The notes under the pieces were generated by a model. It was not told the DNA's origin. It searched no databases and worked only from the letters and a program-made list of their open reading frames with translations. From contig CANJRM010000022.1 in NCBI GenBank assembly GCA_947476645.1, positions 1-36,060 of the forward strand: a stretch of 36,060 nt of DNA, written 5' to 3'. Below are positions 28,918-36,060 of the stretch, one piece after another (position 1 is the first letter of the stretch; each line of letters begins with the position of its first letter). Origin of the DNA: Bacteroidota bacterium. Lineage in GTDB: Bacteria > Bacteroidota > Bacteroidia > Chitinophagales > LD1. The position numbers were made by a program, and so were the translations under genes.

Positions 28918-28994
28918 TCCTCCTTAGCTCAGCTGGTTAGAGCACAAGACTGTTAATCTTGGGGTCCCTGGTTCGAGCCCAGGAGGGGGAGCCA
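28918..28994 (+). tRNA. tRNA-Asn (anticodon GTT)
   Basis: 77 nt with encoded CCA. All stems pair: acceptor TCCTCCT with AGGGGGA (one G-T), anticodon stem CAAGA/TCTTG with loop CTGTTAA (anticodon GTT at 28952-28954), T stem CCTGG/CCAGG with loop TTCGAGC, discriminator G. It is the integration target of the element to its right: the recombinase gene on the minus strand ends inside it (stop at 28924-28926). Confidence 0.97.
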
Positions 28995-30510
28995 AACTGG
29001 ACAGGTCGTTAGAAATAACTTCCTGTCCTTTTTGTTTTTGGCTGAAACCCTCGCCAGTATTGCATAGTAGCGATACGAATGGGTTGACTTGAGTGGTTCG
29101 ATATTCTCCATGACCGAAAATCAACTTTTCGGGAAATATCGAACCAACTACTAAGCTTCTGTCAGTAGGACTTGCAGTTGTCATAACACGCTGGAAACCT
29201 TTTACAACGGATACGCCTTCGTTAAAATTTTTAGGAGCCTCATTCCCTGTTTGTGATTTTAAGCGCACCTGCTCAGCTTGCAGTTTGTCCTTATCCTCGA
29301 CTAATCGTTGGTTAATGCTCTTGAAATCTGCTGCATCTATTTTGCCTTCGATTAGCAAATCCTGATTCTTGACAATCTTTTCATTTAAAACCTTTATCTG
29401 GTTTTCTATCTCGTTTGCCTTCCGTGTGATATACTTAGTTTTATCAACCACCATTGTTTTGAAAATGTTGTTGTAAAGTTTTTCAACGGATTCTTTTACT
29501 TTGAAACTACCAACAGCTTTCATCAGCTTACCTTCAAACTCATCTTTCGCTATTCGCTGATTGCAGCCGTATTTGCTATCGCAGTGGTAATAGGAATAGT
29601 ATCCAGTTCTTCCTTTGGAACGAGAAGCTGTAAATGGATGGTTGCAGTATGGGCAGATAACATGACCTCGCAGAAAGAATTGGTTTTCCTTTTTGGCTAT
29701 CCGAATGGGGATAGGCTGATTACCATTCAATATATTCTGAACCTGCTCAAATACTTCCAAATCCACAATTGGTTCGTGTAATCCTTTTACCCAGTATTCA
29801 CTTTCGCCTTTGAAGGCTGGAACTTTTACATAACCAGCATAAACCTTGTTTCGGAGAATATTGATGAAGGTTTGCTTGCAAACACCAATATTTAATTCCT
29901 TTCGCAGAGCTTCAGCAGAATAATTACCTGTAGCGAAGTTTAGAAATGCTTCTTTTACCATAGCAGCATCTTCGCTTTTCGCCATGCTTGCTCTGTTATC
30001 AATTTCGCTTCTCACGTAGCCAAATGGCACTCTATTAAGGTAGGCACCTTCTTTTGCATACTTGTAGTTGCTTGCCTTTACGCGAAGAGAAATTTTATCA
30101 CTCTCGATTTCATCAAGTGTGTATTGGATATTTTCAATCAGTTTGTGTTCAGGGATACTTTCATCAATAGTCTGTTCTATGGCGCAGACTGTAACTCCAA
30201 GTTTTTTAAAATCAGTTTTAGTTTTTACAGTTAAATGTTGGTTTCGGCCAAACCTATCCCATCGCGTAACTAATACATAATCTACATTTCCTTTGTTTTC
30301 CTTTATAAAAGAATGTAGGCGCAGAAATTCTTTACGGTCAAAATCCCTCCCGCTTTCTTTGTCGGTGAAACAACTAATCACCTCCCACCCCTTTCTATCG
30401 CAATAATTCCTCAGTTGTTCTTCTTGGTATCGAAGGCTTGCGCCCTCTTCCTGTTCTACTGTACTAACCCGTGTGTAAAGTACCGCTTTCTTCTTTTCTT
30501 TAATCATCAT
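28924..30510 (-). CDS. Large serine recombinase (integrase) ending inside tRNA-Asn
   Basis: 528 residues. N-terminal resolvase domain (about 8-150) with catalytic Ser16 in 'LYTRVST' and 'TRWDRFGRN'; recombinase domain (about 165-260, 'VPFGYVRSEID', 'FINILRNKVYAGYVK'); zinc ribbon with 'CPYCNHPF' and a later Cys pair (about 280-315); a coiled coil (about 365-420, 'IENQIKVLNEKIVKNQ'). It would integrate and excise the mobile element. The last 22 residues ('PPPGLEPGTPRLTVLCSNQL' within them) and the stop are encoded by the antisense of the tRNA, so this tail comes from the target site. The start overlaps the preceding small gene by 11 nt. Confidence 0.93.
   Translation of the reverse strand: MMIKEKKKAVLYTRVSTVEQEEGASLRYQEEQLRNYCDRKGWEVISCFTDKESGRDFDRKEFLRLHSFIKENKGNVDYVLVTRWDRFGRNQHLTVKTKTDFKKLGVTVCAIEQTIDESIPEHKLIENIQYTLDEIESDKISLRVKASNYKYAKEGAYLNRVPFGYVRSEIDNRASMAKSEDAAMVKEAFLNFATGNYSAEALRKELNIGVCKQTFINILRNKVYAGYVKVPAFKGESEYWVKGLHEPIVDLEVFEQVQNILNGNQPIPIRIAKKENQFFLRGHVICPYCNHPFTASRSKGRTGYYSYYHCDSKYGCNQRIAKDEFEGKLMKAVGSFKVKESVEKLYNNIFKTMVVDKTKYITRKANEIENQIKVLNEKIVKNQDLLIEGKIDAADFKSINQRLVEDKDKLQAEQVRLKSQTGNEAPKNFNEGVSVVKGFQRVMTTASPTDRSLVVGSIFPEKLIFGHGEYRTTQVNPFVSLLCNTGEGFSQKQKGQEVISNDLSSLAPPPGLEPGTPRLTVLCSNQLS
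28999..29033 (+). terminator. tRNA-Asn terminator, located inside the recombinase coding region
   Basis: GGACAGG (28999-29005) pairs with CCTGTCC (29022-29028); an inner stem GTTA/TAAC closes a GAAA tetraloop (29012-29015); a T-run follows. It starts 5 nt after the tRNA CCA, so it should end tRNA transcription. On the other strand the same bases encode the C-terminal region of the recombinase. Confidence 0.8.
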
Positions 30511-30685
30511 AGCGTTCGTTTTTTAAGTTCAATAATTCAGCTTCCTTTTTAGCCAATAATGTTAGTGCGGCTACCACTTTTTTCAATTCACCCTCGCTAA
30601 GTTTGGTGCCGTCTTCCTCCAGAATCTTTCTTGCTTTTTCTAACGGATATTCATACGTGGCTTCTTCATATTTTTTTCTTTTCAT
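30500..30685 (-). CDS. Small charged helical protein coupled to the recombinase
   Basis: 61 residues, about half of them charged, mostly helix ('EYPLEKARKILEEDGTKLSEGELKKVVAALTLLAKKEAELLNLKNERYDD'-like composition, quoted in part). It has a purine-rich ribosome site (GGAGAAGG) 5 nt before the ATG, rare for this window, and its last codons overlap the recombinase start by 11 nt. This suggests translational coupling and a role with the recombinase, for example as an accessory or directionality protein; that role is inference. No family recognised. Confidence 0.6.
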   Translation of the reverse strand: MKRKKYEEATYEYPLEKARKILEEDGTKLSEGELKKVVAALTLLAKKEAELLNLKNERYDD

Positions 30686-30700
30686 GTTCCCTTCTCCCGT

Positions 30701-30729
30701 ATTCTCAAATTTTTTAATCGGGCGAGAAT
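30701..30729 (-). promoter_or_regulatory. Leader hairpin upstream of the recombinase operon
   Basis: ATTCTC (30701-30706) and GAGAAT (30724-30729) can pair just upstream of the purine-rich ribosome site of the small gene. A four-codon reading frame (Met-Pro-Lys-Lys-stop) lies immediately before it in the mRNA. Together they could form a translational control element; weak evidence. Confidence 0.3.
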
Positions 30730-30836
30730 TATTTTTTAGGCATAGTTATTCGATAAAAGAAACGCTTTGCTGCCGTTACTTTTAAAGCACTATGACCTGA
30801 CTACTGTTGTTGATTGTAAACCGTATTATACTTCTA

Positions 30837-30852
30837 AATAGCTAGCGCTATT
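30837..30852. repeat. Short inverted repeat, possible operator
   Basis: AATAGC, 4-nt spacer TAGC, GCTATT. It lies in the leader about 80 nt downstream of the predicted recombinase-operon promoter. Could bind a regulator, or be chance. Confidence 0.25.
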
Positions 30853-30929
30853 CCGCTTAAGATTTGGCGTGGTTGAATAATGAAAGCGATGTTTACTCGT
30901 TTAATTTCACAACTCAAACCTGATTTATT

Positions 30930-30960
30930 CAAAGGTACGAAATTATGTTGATGGATGCAA
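30930..30960 (-). promoter_or_regulatory. Strong Bacteroidota-type promoter for the recombinase operon (TTG-N20-TACCTTTG)
   Basis: On the minus strand TTG (30960-30958) and TACCTTTG (30937-30930) are 20 nt apart, the same layout as at 35876-35906. It predicts a leader of roughly 240 nt before the small gene at 30685, far longer than for chromosomal genes here. The 330 bases 30686-31016 hold this promoter, the leader elements listed, and the hairpin at 30969-30989; no further coding sequence was seen. Confidence 0.65.
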
Positions 30961-30968
30961 GTTTGAGC

Positions 30969-30989
30969 TGCCACTTTTTTTAAGTGGCA
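30969..30989. terminator. Hairpin between divergent genes
   Basis: TGCCACTT and AAGTGGCA around a five-T loop, 8 perfect base pairs, 28 nt before the ATG at 31017. It is not followed by a clear T-run, so it may be a leader hairpin or operator rather than a terminator. Confidence 0.35.
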
Positions 30990-31016
30990 CACCATATTTA
31001 TAGGTAAACACACGCC

Positions 31017-31520
31017 ATGAAAAACGACATCTACTTCTGGTATGCCGCTGATTACACCAGCCTATACATCGACCCCCTGCAATACTCAATGAACCTTCCA
31101 ATCTTTTCAAATAAGGTAATCGCAATCGAACGAATCATTCCAAACGACACCGAATTGCTGCCAGTTATATCACCCCTTATTCCAACTAGACTGGAAGATA
31201 CCCCCTACGGAACCATACTTGGACGCTCCTATGAAAACTTCCTGCGGAGACGGCTAAAGGATATATATGAATACAGCCTCGTTCTGGAAGATGGCACAAG
31301 GGTTAGCAACCTAGGTTACGGAGTATTGATTGAGAACACCAGAGCTTCGTTGATTAATCATTGTTTATTCAAGGTGTTGGGTGAATCGGTCAATATAAAG
31401 ATATGGCAGCCTGAAAGGTTTTATAAAATCAAAGATGGTGTAATCATCCCTACGGAGCATGTCACCAAGGATGTAATGGCTTACGTTTCTGGGTTATTCA
31501 TTGAAGAAATTTTTGAATAG
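31017..31520 (+). CDS. Unknown 167-residue mobile-element protein
   Basis: No signal peptide and no membrane segment. Mixed alpha/beta composition with blocks 'PYGTILGRSYENFLRRRLKDIYEYSLVLEDGTRVSNLGYGVLIENTRASL' (quoted by parts: PYGTILGRSYENF, LEDGTRVSNLGYG) suggesting a compact soluble domain. Starts with ATG after a hairpin, divergent from the recombinase operon, and ends directly at a C-rich tract. I do not recognise the family. Real-gene support comes from length, start context and even amino-acid composition. Confidence 0.6.
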   Translation: MKNDIYFWYAADYTSLYIDPLQYSMNLPIFSNKVIAIERIIPNDTELLPVISPLIPTRLEDTPYGTILGRSYENFLRRRLKDIYEYSLVLEDGTRVSNLGYGVLIENTRASLINHCLFKVLGESVNIKIWQPERFYKIKDGVIIPTEHVTKDVMAYVSGLFIEEIFE

Positions 31521-31538
31521 CCCTCCCTTCCCTCCCCC
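31521..31538 (-). other. Four-tract G-quadruplex motif on the minus strand
   Basis: Directly after the TAG at 31518-31520, the plus strand has four C-tracts with one- to two-base loops (C3 T C3 TT C3 T C5). The minus strand is therefore G5-A-G3-AA-G3-A-G3, a canonical tight G4 motif, unusual in this A/T-rich genome. A C-rich stretch with the direct repeat TACCGCCCT continues to about 31567. Confidence 0.7.
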
Positions 31539-31652
31539 GTTACCGCCCTTACTACCGCCCTACCCCCGTTCCGATATGATAGGGGACGATGGTAAAGACT
31601 GCCTGAGGGGAATTTTCCGATTTTGATATTCCATTTGCCTGTGCTCAAAAAT

Positions 31653-31674
31653 TTTTTTTCGGATTTTTTTCGGA
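31653..31674 (+). repeat. T-rich 11-nt tandem duplication
   Basis: TTTTTTTCGGA occurs twice head to tail. It sits between the C-rich tract and the nested inverted repeat, in an A/T-rich run of about 35 nt. Confidence 0.75.
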
Positions 31675-31689
31675 TAAAATTTAAGCGTA

Positions 31690-31761
31690 CCTTGATGCAC
31701 TACGCGAGCACGTCTATGCTCTATTGAATACATAGCAAGAACGTGCTAATCCGTATCAAGG
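31690..31761 (+). other. Nested inverted repeat, candidate structured RNA or replication/transfer site
   Basis: Three nested perfect arm pairs: CCTTGAT (31690-31696) with ATCAAGG (31755-31761); AGCACGT (31707-31713) with ACGTGCT (31741-31747); CTATG (31714-31718) with CATAG (31731-31735). The 243 bases between genes (31521-31763) hold this, the G4 motif and the T-rich repeat; no coding sequence seen. Confidence 0.65.
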
Positions 31762-31813
31762 GATGAAGGTGCGTTCAATCCTTTTTCATTTCTTCGTTGA
31801 ACAAAACAGAAAC

Positions 31814-32116
31814 ATGAACATCCTGAAATTAAACAGCGGCAAAGTAGAAGTCCGCAAAGATTCTGGAACTCTTATACGCAACATCGGCAACGCCGATGCC
31901 GTGTTTGCAGACTTCAATGCGGCACAAACCCATGTGCTTATAACCACCAACAAAGGGAAAGTTGAAGTGCGTAAAGAAAGCGGAACGCTGGAAAGAACAA
32001 TTGGCAATGGCGATGCCACCAGCGCAAGATGGATGGGTGATGATGTGGCCATAACCACCAACAAAGGTAAAACCGAAATACGCAAAGCCAGCGGCACCCT
32101 GATAAGAACGATTTAA
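31814..32116 (+). CDS. Small beta-repeat protein (blade-like repeats)
   Basis: 100 residues from ATG 31814 (an ATG at 31763 in the same frame overlaps the end of the inverted repeat and gives an unlikely N-terminus). Three repeats of about 37 residues: residues 8-47, 48-84 and a partial 85-100, each with 'GKVEVRK-SGTL-R-IGN' and 'ITTNKGK' blocks, resembling beta-propeller blades or stacked beta-hairpins. Two full repeats plus a closing fragment are too few for a propeller, so it may oligomerise. No signal peptide. It is 21 nt before another internally repetitive gene. Confidence 0.65.
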   Translation: MNILKLNSGKVEVRKDSGTLIRNIGNADAVFADFNAAQTHVLITTNKGKVEVRKESGTLERTIGNGDATSARWMGDDVAITTNKGKTEIRKASGTLIRTI

Positions 32117-32137
32117 TTTTCATCAACACCAACCAGC

Positions 32138-32509
32138 ATGAAACACCTTCTTGCCTTATTCTTTATTACCCTCTCCACCCTCACCCTAAAAGCACAAATT
32201 GCCGAGGTAAAAGTGGAGGGCAGCTATGCCAAGATTTACAACGATAAAGGGCAATACACGGGTAATTCGGTGTATATCGGTAACAATACTCTTGAAGGCT
32301 ATAGCAATGAATACCTCGTTATTAAAGAAGGTAGTTACGCCAAGATATACGATGCCAAGGCTCATTACACTGGCAATTCAATTTATATAGGAAACAATAC
32401 CGTCAAGCATGTAAGCCAGTCTGCGATTCTTGTCAAGGAAGGCAGCTATGTGAAGTATTACGACTTCAAGGGACATTACACTGGCAATTCAACATACGAA
32501 CCGAAATGA
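32138..32509 (+). CDS. Secreted three-repeat protein
   Basis: 123 residues with a signal peptide (MKHLLALFFITLSTLTLKAQ). The mature part is three repeats of 37 residues starting at 27, 64 and 101: 'EGSYAKIYNDKGQYTGNSVYIGNNT', with the third cut short. The conserved pattern is EGSY-x-K-x-Y-D-x-KGHYTGNS-x-YIGNN. A paired gene at 31814 is also a 37-residue repeat protein without signal, so they may be relatives in different compartments. Function unknown; likely periplasmic or surface. Confidence 0.7.
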   Translation: MKHLLALFFITLSTLTLKAQIAEVKVEGSYAKIYNDKGQYTGNSVYIGNNTLEGYSNEYLVIKEGSYAKIYDAKAHYTGNSIYIGNNTVKHVSQSAILVKEGSYVKYYDFKGHYTGNSTYEPK

Positions 32510-32650
32510 TATGAAACTCCTGTTTGTAATCATCGTATAAAGATGGATACAATTATTTTGATGTTGGAAGGAATGAAAATCAAAGGGTGATTTATATCAT
32601 CCTGTTATAAGTTTCAGCATTCTTTTTTTTGCCAAACAAATTCAAATCCC

Positions 32651-32881
32651 ATGAAAAGAACTTACGCCATAAAAACCACACCATCTTCAGGAGTTGCCAC
32701 CTATCAATCTGGATTTGACACTAAAGCAGACGCGGAAAAATACCTAAGCGAAATGGAAAAGTCCTCAGACGATTCTTTCTCCGTTGTTTATGTTGCCGAT
32801 TATTCTCCATGGGAAGGTAGTGCAATAAGAAATACGCTAAGCGGAATATCCGAGCGGCAGGAGATTGCAGGATATCAATAA
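32651..32881 (+). CDS. Small protein of unknown function
   Basis: 76 residues, soluble. 'MKRTYAIKTTPSSGVATYQSGFDTKADAEKYLSEMEKSSDDSFSVVYVADY' (quoted here only as blocks KRTYAIKTT, FDTKADAEKYL, SFSVVYVADY) suggests a beta-alpha-beta mini-domain. It starts with ATG after a gap of 141 nt without other coding signal, and ends 24 nt before the lipoprotein. No family recognised. Confidence 0.5.
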   Translation: MKRTYAIKTTPSSGVATYQSGFDTKADAEKYLSEMEKSSDDSFSVVYVADYSPWEGSAIRNTLSGISERQEIAGYQ

Positions 32882-32904
32882 ATAAAACGGCTATACTTGA
32901 TAGA

Positions 32905-33408
32905 GTGAAATACATTTTCGTCCCCACCTTTCTGCTGCTCGTCTTCTTATCATCTTGCCATAACAACAATGCAGAAAAAGAAATAACCAATACCATCAAT
33001 GCTGTTTACAAAGAGCCGAATGTGTATTCCCAACTGGGAGCTAATACCACTTTGCTTAGCAAACAATTAAGCCATTTGATTGCCAGAGCAAAAGAAGTGG
33101 AAGAGCTTGACCTGCAAAGGGTGCGCAACAGCGAATATCCAACTGATAAGCCATTGCTTATTGAAGGGGAGATATTTACAAGCGTATACGAGGGCTATAG
33201 CTCATTAAAAGTGGATGAAATGGAAGTTGAGAACAACACAGCCAAAGCAGTTGTAATATTCTTAAATGAAGGTTATAAGCTTAACTGGAGTGATACCTTA
33301 CTGCTGACAAATGAAAATGGCTGGAAGCTGGATGATGTGAAATACAACAAGGATAACGGCAGCTTGCAGAAAACCCTTAAGGAGTTTAATTCCAATTACA
33401 AAGAATAA
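32905..33408 (+). CDS. Lipoprotein of unknown function (mobile element)
   Basis: 167 residues from GTG 32905. Signal with lipobox 'VFLSSCHNN', Cys18. The mature part has helical 'QLSHLIARAKEVEELDLQRVRNSEYPTDKPLLIEGEIF' (blocks only) and strands 'NNTAKAVVIFLNEG', 'WSDTLLLTNENGWKLDDVKY', a layout seen in small NTF2-like or DUF3828-like lipoproteins; that resemblance is tentative. GTG is the only start before the signal peptide. Followed by a good terminator. Confidence 0.65.
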   Translation: MKYIFVPTFLLLVFLSSCHNNNAEKEITNTINAVYKEPNVYSQLGANTTLLSKQLSHLIARAKEVEELDLQRVRNSEYPTDKPLLIEGEIFTSVYEGYSSLKVDEMEVENNTAKAVVIFLNEGYKLNWSDTLLLTNENGWKLDDVKYNKDNGSLQKTLKEFNSNYKE

Positions 33409-33426
33409 GGCACGCCAACTAAGGGC

Positions 33427-33455
33427 AAAGCCAGTTCCGAAAGGGCTGGCTTTTT
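33427..33455 (+). terminator. Intrinsic terminator after the lipoprotein gene
   Basis: AAAGCCAG (33427-33434) pairs with CTGGCTTT (33446-33453) around an 11-nt loop, followed by T residues. Placed 19 nt after the stop at 33408. Confidence 0.8.
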
Positions 33456-33527
33456 GCTACACTTCAAATGAGTAGCTATACCTATTGCTATCAAATAATG
33501 TTATGTTTAATTTGCTTCAAAAAATAC

Positions 33528-33914
33528 ATGGAAACAACATCGCCCAAATCACTTTATGAAAGACTTGGAGGTCTTTCAGGAATCACAGCAATTGTTGATG
33601 ATATTGTTGACGCTCACATGACCAACCCAGCAGTTAAGTCAAGATTTTTGCCATTAAAGGATAACCCAGAACATTTTGCAAAAGTCCGAGAACATCTGAT
33701 AAACTTTTTAGCATCAGGCAGTGGTGGAAGCGAACAATACACAGGAAGAGATATGCCAACTGCACACAGAGGTATGAACATTAGCAATGGAGAATACATG
33801 AGCGTGATTGATGATATTATGTCGGCATTAGCTAAGCATAATATTGATGATGAAAGCAAAAAAGATGTGCTGTTCATTGCCTATTCTTTGAAAGAGACAA
33901 TGGTGGGTAAATAA
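33528..33914 (+). CDS. Group I truncated hemoglobin
   Basis: 128 residues from ATG 33528 (METTSPKSLYERLGG); the longer frame from 33468 adds 20 residues outside the family and overlaps the upstream terminator region. Family features: 'SLYERLGGLSGI' at the start, 'HMTNPAVKSRF' (CD region), 'LINFLASGSGGSEQYTGRDMPTAHRGM' with the proximal His80, and 'IDDIMSALAKHNID'. It binds O2 or NO with heme; group I members often detoxify NO. Monocistronic with its own terminator. It sits in the mobile element, so it is likely cargo. Confidence 0.93.
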   Translation: METTSPKSLYERLGGLSGITAIVDDIVDAHMTNPAVKSRFLPLKDNPEHFAKVREHLINFLASGSGGSEQYTGRDMPTAHRGMNISNGEYMSVIDDIMSALAKHNIDDESKKDVLFIAYSLKETMVGK

Positions 33915-33944
33915 ATCAGCTATCTCAGCATAGCTTGTTGATGA

Positions 33945-33974
33945 AGTCAGTCCTGCAATGGGCTGGCTTTTTTA
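33945..33974 (+). terminator. Intrinsic terminator after the hemoglobin gene
   Basis: AGTCAGTCC and GGGCTGGCT form 9 pairs (two G-U) around a 6-nt loop, followed by six T. The GGGCTGGCTTTTT part resembles the terminator at 33427-33455. Confidence 0.8.
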
Positions 33975-33990
33975 TTTTCTCCTAGTATTT

Positions 33991-34342
33991 ATGGTTATGC
34001 AAACAGTAAAATATAGGTGGAAAATCGGTTTGGTGAAACGGTTGAATATTCATTTGCTAATGCAATGAATTCCCGTTACAAGGCCATTGAACAACTAAAG
34101 CTATTTCGAGGTGAATCGAAGTCATACAAAGGTCTTAAGCTATCCTATTCAATTACAGACATTCAAACTTTTGACATCCTTACAGGAAAGCGATTCAAGA
34201 ATATCCTGCGAGTGAATTGGAAATTCTGGCCAATCTGGATTTGCATTGTGAAATGCCAGCTTGCTTCACCGAGCTTGATGATGAATCATACTTAACGATT
34301 GCCGATGACATGGTTTACCCGTATTGCTTCACGGTTGATTAG
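33991..34342 (+). pseudogene. Frameshifted small gene
   Basis: A coding-like sequence runs through two or three frames. From ATG 33991 (frame 1) about nine codons read 'MVMQTVKYR'; frame 3 from about 34017 gives 'ENRFGETVEYSFANAMNSRYKAI...FDILTGKRFK'; frame 2 from about 34199 gives 'EYPASELEILANLDLHCEMP...MVYPYCFTVD' and a TAG at 34340. Each change is equivalent to a one-base deletion. A GTG at 34017 could be an alternative start, leaving one frameshift. The acidic, well-formed tail argues for decay of a real gene (or programmed shifting) rather than chance. Its stop overlaps the convergent primase-like gene by 4 nt. Product not recognised. Confidence 0.5.
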
Positions 34343-35532
34343 TCTTCACAATTTCTCTGTTTCATTAAATCATTATTTAAGTAGCTCACCAATTCCTTAA
34401 ATGATTTCCAGTATTTCTCAACCGTCTTTTGGCTGATGGGATGATGCGTGTATACCTTCCTTTGAGCAATCTTCCCGTATTTGTCGAAGTCCCACGATTC
34501 AATGATGTCATACAACTTCTGTGTGCTTTTATCCTTCCAATGCTTCGTAATTTCATCTCTGCATATTTCCAGCTTCTCATCACGAGTTAATTCGCTATGC
34601 TGGCAGAATACAATCTTCCTTTTCTTTCTGAAGTATATCGGCTTGAGCGTTCCGTCTTCCTTATACTTAAATACTGATTTCACTATCCGTAATAAGTGGT
34701 TGCCATCAACGGGAGTTTCACATATCCTATAATTCACCTTGGATAGTATGCCGTAGGCCTTCTCAAATGATATTTCAGGATTCAGATAGACTAAGTTACC
34801 ACAATAAGCTACTAGCGTATTATTTCTGTTCTTCTTAATCTTCCTTATAGGCATAAAGCATCTGATGTTATCATACCCTTCCCAATTTACCACATACTCA
34901 CCTTCAACTGGTATTTCATCTATGTTGTCAAAACGGATGGAAATGGATTTTGCCCCCCCATCTATGGTATATGCCTTTCTTTCTTCTCTTCTTACTATAG
35001 ATGGGGGGGCAGAAATACCTGAATAGGTAAAAGCATTATCATTGATGAAAAGGTTATCATCATAAGAGATTATGTTGTATTGTGTTGCCTTGGCTGCTTG
35101 TATATCTACATACTCCTGAATGCCCAAATCCTGAACGATACCAGTATAGGTAGAACGAAAGTTATCTAGGGTAACACCAGATACCCTTACCAGAATAGCA
35201 TATCCATGACCACCAAATGAATGGTAATAGGAATATACCTTGCTTTTATCTAGGGTATGAATATCAAACTCTGGATTATCTATATCAATATATATAACAC
35301 CAGTGCTTTGAAGGGTATTATTTGTGTTCTTGTAGCCCTTATACTGGAAGTTATAGGTTACACATGGCAGACTGGCCTTGGTGGTATCATATACCTCAGG
35401 GTTGTGTCTTGCTTGAATTATTTTATCGGTATAGGTTGAATACTTGATTTTATTCAACCATTGGGTTATAGAGATGTTTGAAACTACACTTGGGTTGGTG
35501 ATGTTTTCATAGGTATTGATTTGGATGTCCAC
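34339..35532 (-). CDS. BT4734/VirE N-terminal domain protein (primase-like), mobile-element replication candidate
   Basis: 397 residues from GTG 35532. Residues about 20-165 match the BT4734-like/VirE_N domain, a relative of archaeo-eukaryotic primases: 'VIYIDIDN' (Asp83, Asp85), 'SFGGHGYAILVRVSG' and 'ATQYNIISYDDNLFIN'. The middle and C-terminal parts ('NYRICETPVDGNHLLRIVKSVFKYKEDGTLKPIYF', in blocks; then 'YGKIAQRKVYTHHPISQKTVEKYWKSF', helix-turn-helix-like) could be a primase-C-terminal and DNA-binding region. A usual D5/DUF3987 helicase fusion is absent. Role in element replication is inferred. The gene contains a 15-bp perfect inverted repeat (34951-35011) just after the first domain. 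Confidence 0.75.
   Translation of the reverse strand: MDIQINTYENITNPSVVSNISITQWLNKIKYSTYTDKIIQARHNPEVYDTTKASLPCVTYNFQYKGYKNTNNTLQSTGVIYIDIDNPEFDIHTLDKSKVYSYYHSFGGHGYAILVRVSGVTLDNFRSTYTGIVQDLGIQEYVDIQAAKATQYNIISYDDNLFINDNAFTYSGISAPPSIVRREERKAYTIDGGAKSISIRFDNIDEIPVEGEYVVNWEGYDNIRCFMPIRKIKKNRNNTLVAYCGNLVYLNPEISFEKAYGILSKVNYRICETPVDGNHLLRIVKSVFKYKEDGTLKPIYFRKKRKIVFCQHSELTRDEKLEICRDEITKHWKDKSTQKLYDIIESWDFDKYGKIAQRKVYTHHPISQKTVEKYWKSFKELVSYLNNDLMKQRNCED
34951..35011. repeat. Perfect 15-bp inverted repeat with C7/G7 tracts inside the primase-like gene
   Basis: TGCCCCCCCATCTAT (34951-34965) and its exact complement (34997-35011); the stem extends to 19 positions with one G-U. The loop is a pyrimidine-rich 23-nt run on the plus strand. 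It encodes 'SAPPSI' and 'TIDGGAK' at the end of the VirE_N domain. Confidence 0.85.
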
Positions 35533-35875
35533 TGTATCATATCATTCTGCTTTTATGTTATTGTGTCTGCTGTTTTTAGCTAGTGCAGAAGCTGGAGGTA
35601 ATTACTCCCCCAGCAACCAGCATCAACCCTATTACAGGCTGATAGGTATAATTTACAATCAAAGGCTCAATAGTAAATAGTTGGTCTAGTGAAAAACGAA
35701 CTAACTGCTAGGAAGATTTAGGACTTGACCTCAACTCAGGCAGTTGGCTGAAAAAGAGGCTGCATTATTTGTTTAGGCTGTAGTAAAAGCCAACTACCCA
35801 AAGATACTAAGAATTTCGGTAGGCTGCAAGCAAAAGCGCGCATTTATAAAGAATAAAATATATTTCCAAATTTTC
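35533..35875. other. Intergenic stretch without visible genes
   Basis: No coding sequence of useful length on either strand. It holds the start region of the primase-like gene (minus strand) and the approach to the promoter at 35876. Short inverted pieces occur (for example AGTTGGC and GCCAACT near 35750 and 35790) but form no array. Confidence 0.5.
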
Positions 35876-35906
35876 TTGCATAATTCATTTTTTATTCGTA
35901 CCTTTG
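35876..35906 (+). promoter_or_regulatory. Bacteroidota-type promoter (TTG-N20-TACCTTTG)
   Basis: TTG 35876-35878 and TACCTTTG 35899-35906, 20-nt spacing, the same layout and same -7 octamer as the recombinase-operon promoter (minus strand, 30930-30960). It precedes the gene fragment starting at 35941. Confidence 0.7.
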
Positions 35907-35940
35907 CATATATCGATAAGTTAATGAAAGTATATATAAT

Positions 35941-36060
35941 ATGCTTAAAATCAATTTATTAGATTGCAATACGGATATGGTCTCCACCCATATTCTTTTC
36001 AAACAACCATCGACTAAATATTGGATTTACCACCCAATTTTTTCTGATTTTACATCAGAA
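35941..36060 (+). CDS. Start of an unknown gene, cut by the window edge
   Basis: From ATG 35941 the frame is open for 40 codons to the last base (MLKINLLDCNTDMVSTHILF... ending SDFTSE). A strong promoter lies 34 nt upstream. A 12-codon frame at 35924 overlaps it and could be a leader peptide. Too short for family assignment. Confidence 0.5.
   Translation, partial: MLKINLLDCNTDMVSTHILFKQPSTKYWIYHPIFSDFTSE

Follow-up and report, generated by a model that had tools for sequence, protein, structure and literature searches.

How does the gene of a large serine recombinase come to end inside a tRNA gene, and what becomes of the enzyme's C-terminus when the DNA around it is rearranged? The question is raised by the window analysed here, one whole contig of 36,060 nucleotides (G000:C22), in which the recombinase reading frame closes as ...NDLSSL|APPPGLEPGTPRLTVLCSNQLS, with its stop codon TAA at 28924-28926 lying within tRNA-Asn. 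Three features define the overlap.

28918-28994, plus strand: tRNA-Asn(gtt), the target and attB side of attL (ARAGORN; position 73 at 28991)
28924-30510, minus strand: large serine recombinase, integrated form, 528 aa (open reading frame and Pfam)
28924-28992, minus strand: tail of the integrated form, 22 codons and a stop from tRNA antisense (first codon after the bar at 28992-28990)

The initial annotation had read the recombinase into tRNA-Asn and derived 22 codons and the stop from the tRNA; the open reading frame and ARAGORN bear out both this reading and its coordinates. Pfam domains follow one another on the protein in the order Resolvase (residues 9-156), Recombinase (180-263) and zinc ribbon (280-332), all above cut-offs, and the motif RVS near the N-terminus is invariant in 33 of 33 aligned sequences, its serine presumably being the catalytic serine of the recombinase. 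An AlphaFold model built from the window protein and nine IMG/VR relatives, a shallow alignment that lends it little weight, has a mean pLDDT of 74.4 and places two long helices (340-387 and 393-420) after the zinc domain, where large serine recombinases carry a coiled-coil insertion, at a pTM of only 0.32, while residues 498-528 fall below a pLDDT of 50. The answer that we favour, with a probability of roughly 0.75, is that the locus is the left junction of an element whose attP would lie in the end of the recombinase gene, that the circular form would encode a conserved tail in place of the tRNA-derived one, that the recombinase may dock on the T-loop of its target, and that loss of the tail may act as a switch.

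Homologues were searched with the window protein among 60 relatives, 30 genomes of the family, 396 of the order and 395 of the class, and a homologue at E 1e-40 or better was found in 53 of the 396 and 66 of the 395 genomes, respectively. A script took 106 loci, each with a recombinase open reading frame present. Left out before the counts were L012, which is cut by a contig end, L020, which contains stops and matches mainly over a tRNA, and the distant L017-L019 and L021-L024, which have low identity and a locus without an ARAGORN RNA gene; L074 was dropped as a duplicate of L008. Of the further match sites, 40 of the 60 listed were taken in, leaving out the other 20 and the lower-ranked rows for order and class.

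Across these loci, 86 of 106 frames meet an RNA gene called by ARAGORN with a GTTC[AG]A T-loop, always in antisense (76 tRNA and 10 tmRNA genes), and 3 more meet a tRNA with TTTGA in the loop. The types among the 86 are Arg (16), Leu (15), Asn (12), tmRNA (10), Lys (10), Met (7), Glu (5), Pro (3), Val (3), Ala (2), Ser (1), His (1) and Phe (1). The frame relative to RNA position 73 is identical in 85 of the 86, and the distance from an RT motif to that position is 109 nt in 81 of the 82 frames with the motif and 110 nt in L009. Given these counts, the antisense run of the recombinase into tRNA-Asn exceeds chance. Transfer RNA targets had been called less usual for large serine recombinases than for tyrosine integrases; within this family RNA genes are instead the usual target. 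The counter-case named in advance, an unchanged tail in homologues that lie away from tRNA genes, was not seen: the remaining 17 frames, which lack an ARAGORN RNA gene and were sorted by eye, comprise 7 with an RNA-like 3' end and the T-loop motif at 20 nt, 4 that enter an arm bearing an SN tail and the motif at 25 nt (L080, L106, L133 and L142), and 6 with neither feature (L088, L109, L134, L137, L138 and L155).

A FastTree tree of 86 labelled sequences with 12 RNA types requires at least 46 changes of target, compared with a mean of 59.2 (minimum 54) over 30 label shuffles. The window's own genome carries two more distant members of the family, one at tRNA-Arg (C178, L036) and one at tRNA-Leu (C177, L040), and the hosts of the family are probably Bacteroidota. 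A search of genome contigs with the window protein found no relative; in IMG/VR the window protein led to one distant locus and the alignment to 80 loci. Among the ten nearest of these 80, four show the motif at 20 in an RNA end, three (L209, L212 and L216) have GTTCGA at neither 20 nor 25 nt from the junction and lack the SN tail, one runs off its contig end, one is uninformative, and from one no open reading frame was picked up.

The right junction is located by comparison with a genome of the same genus (G014), in which the same locus lacks the element (L027); behind the tRNA stand the tRNA's own hairpin and then a PfkB-like gene. In the window's genome, the PfkB-like gene, at 90% identity, lies on contig C165, where it stands beside TTTCGAGAACAATCTATCTTCGGGAGC and then a hairpin. 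Two further features follow from this comparison.

28987-28992, plus strand: GGGAGC, the sole bases common to attL and attR (attL/attR comparison)
28992-36060, unstranded: mobile element, left part up to the contig end (putative right end and attR on C165; L064, junction near 2630)

The predicted crossover lies within or adjoining GGGAGC, and the identity of attP and attB is confined to these bases, a short match as in serine integrases. The length of the element comes to at least 7.1 kb in the window plus about 1.5 kb on C165; as the assembly leaves these contigs unjoined, the end on C165 may belong to a tandem neighbour. Judged from sequence, a large serine recombinase has inserted a mobile element at the 3' end of tRNA-Asn, and the window holds its left junction. 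A crossover at this 3' end had been suggested beforehand, and the junction does fall there, as placed from attL and the right end on C165. The right-hand repeat of the tRNA end that was to be sought did not appear as a long repeat; attL and attR share 6 nt. A long direct repeat was rejected in favour of a short core, as the window's genome holds only the tRNA itself (at most 2 mismatches) and such a repeat is also absent from 9 element regions scanned without a gap. In G005, a weak second copy of the tRNA end turned out to be its right junction.

The position of one motif distinguishes the two kinds of site.

28971-28976, plus strand: T-loop GTTCGA, 20 nt before the RNA end (proposed site at which the zinc-ribbon domain of the recombinase docks)

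TTCGA starts 20 nt before RNA position 73 in RNA genes (inclusive count) and 25 nt before the corresponding position in the right ends of the window's element and of G005, and the 25-nt rule led to right ends in G025, G036 and G015. A scan of 26 element regions, which include these last three, used earlier to form the offset rule, gave 18 matches at offset 25, spread over 15 regions, and 11 in all at the remaining 20 offsets from 15 to 35; among the 20 regions added after the rule was set, 12 gave 15 of the 18 matches. Of 28 elements, 18 have an identified right end, namely 15 from the offset scan and those of the window's element, G005 and G316 (see below); in the other 10 no right end was found, and some regions stop early at contig ends.

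According to excerpts of the work on the LI integrase, the motif of the zinc domain is shifted between attP and attB, lying 5 bp closer to the centre in the latter (Rutherford et al. 2013, PMC3783163), and within it position 18 is nearly invariant and G15 and C11 are strongly conserved (PMC3783163). The family here has the same shift by sequence, the presumed zinc-domain motif standing at 25 nt in attP and, 5 bp nearer the core, at 20 nt in attB. With the centre set between tRNA positions 71 and 72, a hand estimate from one near-palindromic attP, positions 18, 15 and 11 are taken by T54, G57 and C61 of the T-arm, and it is on this correspondence that the T-loop is proposed as the docking motif of the zinc-ribbon domain.

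When the circle is reconstructed from both junctions and the left arm is read across the junction into the right arm, the reading frame of the recombinase stays open. The tails so obtained are APEDRLFSKSVQDGLNLILMLYPLLTKYDVLPKKRTPKSRV for the window's element, APLRVIFSNQLVEDFKKIYELKPILKVV... for G036, APPKIQFSNQFKQDLRKIYDLKPFVEV... for G702 and APPSGLFSNQLYEDLRRIYDLRAFVPL... for G196; they measure roughly 17 to 45 residues and are conserved between elements, with a pattern of about FSNxLxEDLxxIY, from which the window's own tail deviates (FSKSVQDGLNLILMLYPLL) and to which that of G553 is a weak match. The letters SN are dictated by the motif with which right ends were located; the residues beyond them are not. 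Conservation was tested on 20 non-redundant right arms (4 near-duplicates dropped), over nucleotides 26-65 past the junction, outside the search motif. The mean pairwise BLOSUM62 score was -0.011, compared with a mean of -1.319 (sd 0.097, maximum -0.965) in 1000 dinucleotide shuffles, and 3 stops occurred in 259 codons, compared with a mean of 18.0 and a minimum of 7 in the shuffles.

A profile of the 20 tails was then compared with the translated regions of 11 elements lacking a right end. One match, in G316, reached E 2.4e-7, the next standing at 0.48; it marks a right end at 25 nt that has the core of that element's tRNA-Arg and is followed by a hairpin, and translation in the frame of the recombinase gives TPEGIFSNRFYEDLKALYNLNRLIVS. 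This end had been missed because it carries TTGGA instead of TTCGA. The same search yielded nothing in the other 10 of the 11 elements.

The attP site is thus most likely part of the recombinase gene, in which case a conserved tail would give way to tRNA antisense on integration. That the C-terminus differs between integrated and circular forms had been anticipated in the initial annotation, and this is predicted for the window's element and for the others with a right end found; conservation of the circle tail as protein had not been foreseen. The circle itself is reconstructed from junctions. No free circular copy was seen in phages (450 records) or plasmids (188 records), where all matches stayed below 60% identity and the best among those listed reached about 22-29%, nor among the ten nearest of the 80 IMG/VR loci.

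On the other side of the junction, the end of the recombinase gene appears to serve the RNA gene.

28999-29033, plus strand: terminator-like hairpin GGACAGG...CCTGTCC with T-run for the tRNA, in antisense to recombinase codons; left arm of attP (sequence)

Throughout the family, a hairpin with a T-rich tail stands directly behind the RNA gene, within the recombinase frame and in the orientation of the RNA gene. Stems of at least 8 occur at 75 of 86 loci, compared with 40 of 510 control windows taken further inside the gene on the same strand, and stems of at least 6 at 82 of 86, compared with 147 of 510. The hairpin sequences vary from locus to locus, and the hairpins are read as probable replacements for the terminator that the RNA gene loses by displacement on insertion.

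These elements can be joined in one mechanism. Left of the junction, recombinase codons would double, in antisense, as a terminator in place of the displaced one of the tRNA. In the integrated state the recombinase frame enters the tRNA antisense and stops there, and in the circle it would enter the right end of the element and acquire the conserved tail. The zinc-ribbon domain, to judge from position, would dock on GTTCGA, be it in the T-loop of any tRNA or tmRNA (20 nt) or in the right-arm copy (25 nt), which would allow one enzyme design to move between RNA genes. The tailed enzyme made from the circle would carry out integration; once the element is inserted and the tail lost, the enzyme may be weaker or altered in direction, so that the insertion reaction itself would help to set the switch. 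In its full extent, the mechanism would describe a widespread family of bacterial serine integrases in which integration rewrites the enzyme: the tailed circle form integrates, removal of the tail locks the element in or favours excision, the zinc ribbon reads the universal T-loop, and the host gene is repaid with an antisense terminator. We hold this wider picture tentatively, as not far short of an even chance.

The same arrangement could also arise from compact packing and involve no switch, the tail serving for folding or for integration only, attP sitting in the gene end because integrase genes adjoin attP, and the tail-less enzyme excising with the help of a directionality factor. All Pfam domains are kept in the tail-less form. 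The tRNA-derived tails vary in length, with the stop inside the RNA gene in 64 of 86 loci and the frame reading on through it in the other 22, which indicates that these tails are hardly selected. In addition, a MerR-like gene, a candidate directionality factor or regulator, stands upstream of the recombinase in 27 of the 94 relatives whose upstream DNA spans 900 nt or more (for example, L009:3210-4025 and L011:400-1215); none was matched in the window's locus. Compact packing draws on the same sequence evidence as the switch, from which it differs in consequence only, and no data speak against it; we regard it as a real possibility, though clearly below even odds.

Both accounts take the right arm to be translated. 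If its conservation were instead a feature of the DNA, such as a site for the recombinase or a directionality factor, or belonged to another small gene, no tail would have to exist. Constraint at the DNA level is indeed visible elsewhere in the recombinase gene, at a perfect inverted repeat.

29095-29104 and 29136-29145 (29095-29145), unstranded: 10-bp perfect inverted repeat GGTTCGATAT / ATATCGAACC inside the recombinase gene (sequence)

In the family, counting from RNA position 73, 81 of 85 loci carry GTTCGA at +105 to +110, 59 carry the mirror sequence TCGAAC at +148 to +153, and 58 carry both (L009 was left out of the codon and repeat counts). The arginine codon at the repeat is CGA in 82 of 83 cases, compared with 390 of 2880 arginine codons of these genes (site included), and the serine codon is TCG in 69 of 75, compared with 309 of 2713 serine codons. 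This codon choice points to selection on the DNA itself, and the repeat may be a recombinase binding site, an operator or an accessory site on its own gene. The repeat was also considered as a second attP; given its odd spacing (47 nt, counted by hand, between the T and its mirror), it was not called an att site.

In the right arms, the pattern of conservation is mostly that of a protein. Scores over 24 arms are best in the recombinase frame (-0.14, compared with -0.55 to -1.21 in the five other frames). In the set used for the shuffles, the median open length is 30 codons in this frame compared with 13.5 and 18 in the other frames, and stops, as counted above, are few. Identity by codon position in the 24 arms is 0.38 and 0.40 at the first and second positions and 0.31 at the third. 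Five near pairs of right arms give a mixed picture that does not decide on selection by itself: third-position differences are clearly more numerous in two and show no such excess in two, the latter being what a DNA feature would allow. The exceptional L009, with its extra nucleotide, belongs to G025, whose right arm encodes the tail motif (LFKRLYVLKPLL) in a frame shifted to match; a fixed frame and length together with this matching shift are what selection on the joined protein predicts. A protein profile also found G316 despite the change from TTCGA to TTGGA. Conservation of the right end as DNA alone, or as part of another small gene, is therefore improbable. Endings of the GLEP type are a familiar product of translating tRNA antisense, and the recombinase might merely lack a stop before the RNA gene, its tail meaningless in both states, but an artefact of gene calling is very hard to reconcile with one frame in 85 of 86 loci, an invariant length in 81 of 82 and a circle tail conserved far beyond its shuffles.

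With translation of the tail as the preferred reading, the family can be set beside known systems. It resembles the large serine integrases of the A118/LI type in domains, in a short core and in the 5-bp shift of the motif between attB and attP, as far as excerpts of the descriptions go (PDB 4KIS, 6DNW; PMC3783163, PMC3556126), and tRNA targets are not mentioned for A118/LI integrases in these excerpts (PMC3783163, PMC3556126). A profile of the family matches the C-terminal domain of A118/LI at E about 1e-21. Unlike that type, the family here targets the 3' ends of tRNA and tmRNA genes, has its putative attP in the recombinase gene and carries the antisense terminator in its left arm.

The nearest described systems are the archaeal suicidal tyrosine integrases and the repressor of mycobacteriophage BPs. 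For SSV-type integrases, the target is usually a tRNA gene. Like the family here, they have the attachment site in the integrase's own gene, which is divided on integration, and excerpts of a 2021 review state that suicidal integrases are tyrosine enzymes exclusive to archaea (PMC8371274). The family differs in that its enzyme is bacterial and, by Pfam, a serine and not a tyrosine recombinase, and in that just a short C-terminal tail would be lost, not the catalytic half. In BPs, according to excerpts of the report, it is the repressor gene that contains attP, and the repressor of the prophage is shorter by 33 residues (PMC4557955); integration-dependent immunity is thus alike in having attP in a coding gene and a C-terminally shortened integrated form, but unlike in that the gene concerned is not the recombinase gene. 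The viral form of the BPs repressor has an ssrA-like degradation tag (PMC4557955), whereas the circle tails here, compared by eye, show no common ending of this kind; one of them (G250m) ends in LLAA. Tyrosine integrases at tRNA genes, including those of tRNA-dependent lysogeny (PMC10865867) and of a Riemerella Arg-tRNA island (PMC6764341), share the tRNA target, as far as excerpts of these reports show. They usually have long cores that rebuild the tRNA, whereas insertion here falls behind the last tRNA base, with 6 nt shared. In the open-licence literature, searched by title and abstract, no serine integrase was recognised that docks on a T-loop or whose own gene contains attP; other terms may find one.

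Serine integrases are directional, and their direction is usually sought in coiled coils and in separate directionality factors. A DNA rearrangement that alters the enzyme's own C-terminus would offer a direct test case for a switch encoded in the enzyme itself. T-loop docking, if true, would explain in one step both the repeated landing in tRNA and tmRNA genes and the changes of target. For annotation, genome-derived reading frames of the family would end in tRNA residues and not in the enzyme's real tail, which matters for cloning them as tools. The family would also show genes divided by their own integration among bacterial serine enzymes, contrary to the archaea-only statement in the excerpted review (PMC8371274).

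Several minor observations concern neighbouring DNA. Tandem insertions at one tRNA are suggested by several right-end-like junctions in series in two arrays (L177 in G330a; L175-L176 in G330b), one of the G330a junctions having no intact recombinase behind it. Repeats resembling the 3' end of tRNA-Asn lie about 100 nt downstream of tRNA-Asn in L032 (G004:C38) and L035 (G044:C95), where the recombinase is absent from the site; they are probably traces of other elements. Two genes to the right of the window's recombinase are candidate cargo.

33468-33914: bacterial globin, cargo candidate (Pfam Bac_globin)
34339-35532: protein with a BT4734-like N-terminal domain, cargo candidate (Pfam)

At the other end, a small serine resolvase (Pfam Resolvase) adjoins the right junction on C165 (L064:2864-3466, G000:C165), and a small resolvase similar to it in sequence is present in the G005 island (L058:16224-16835).
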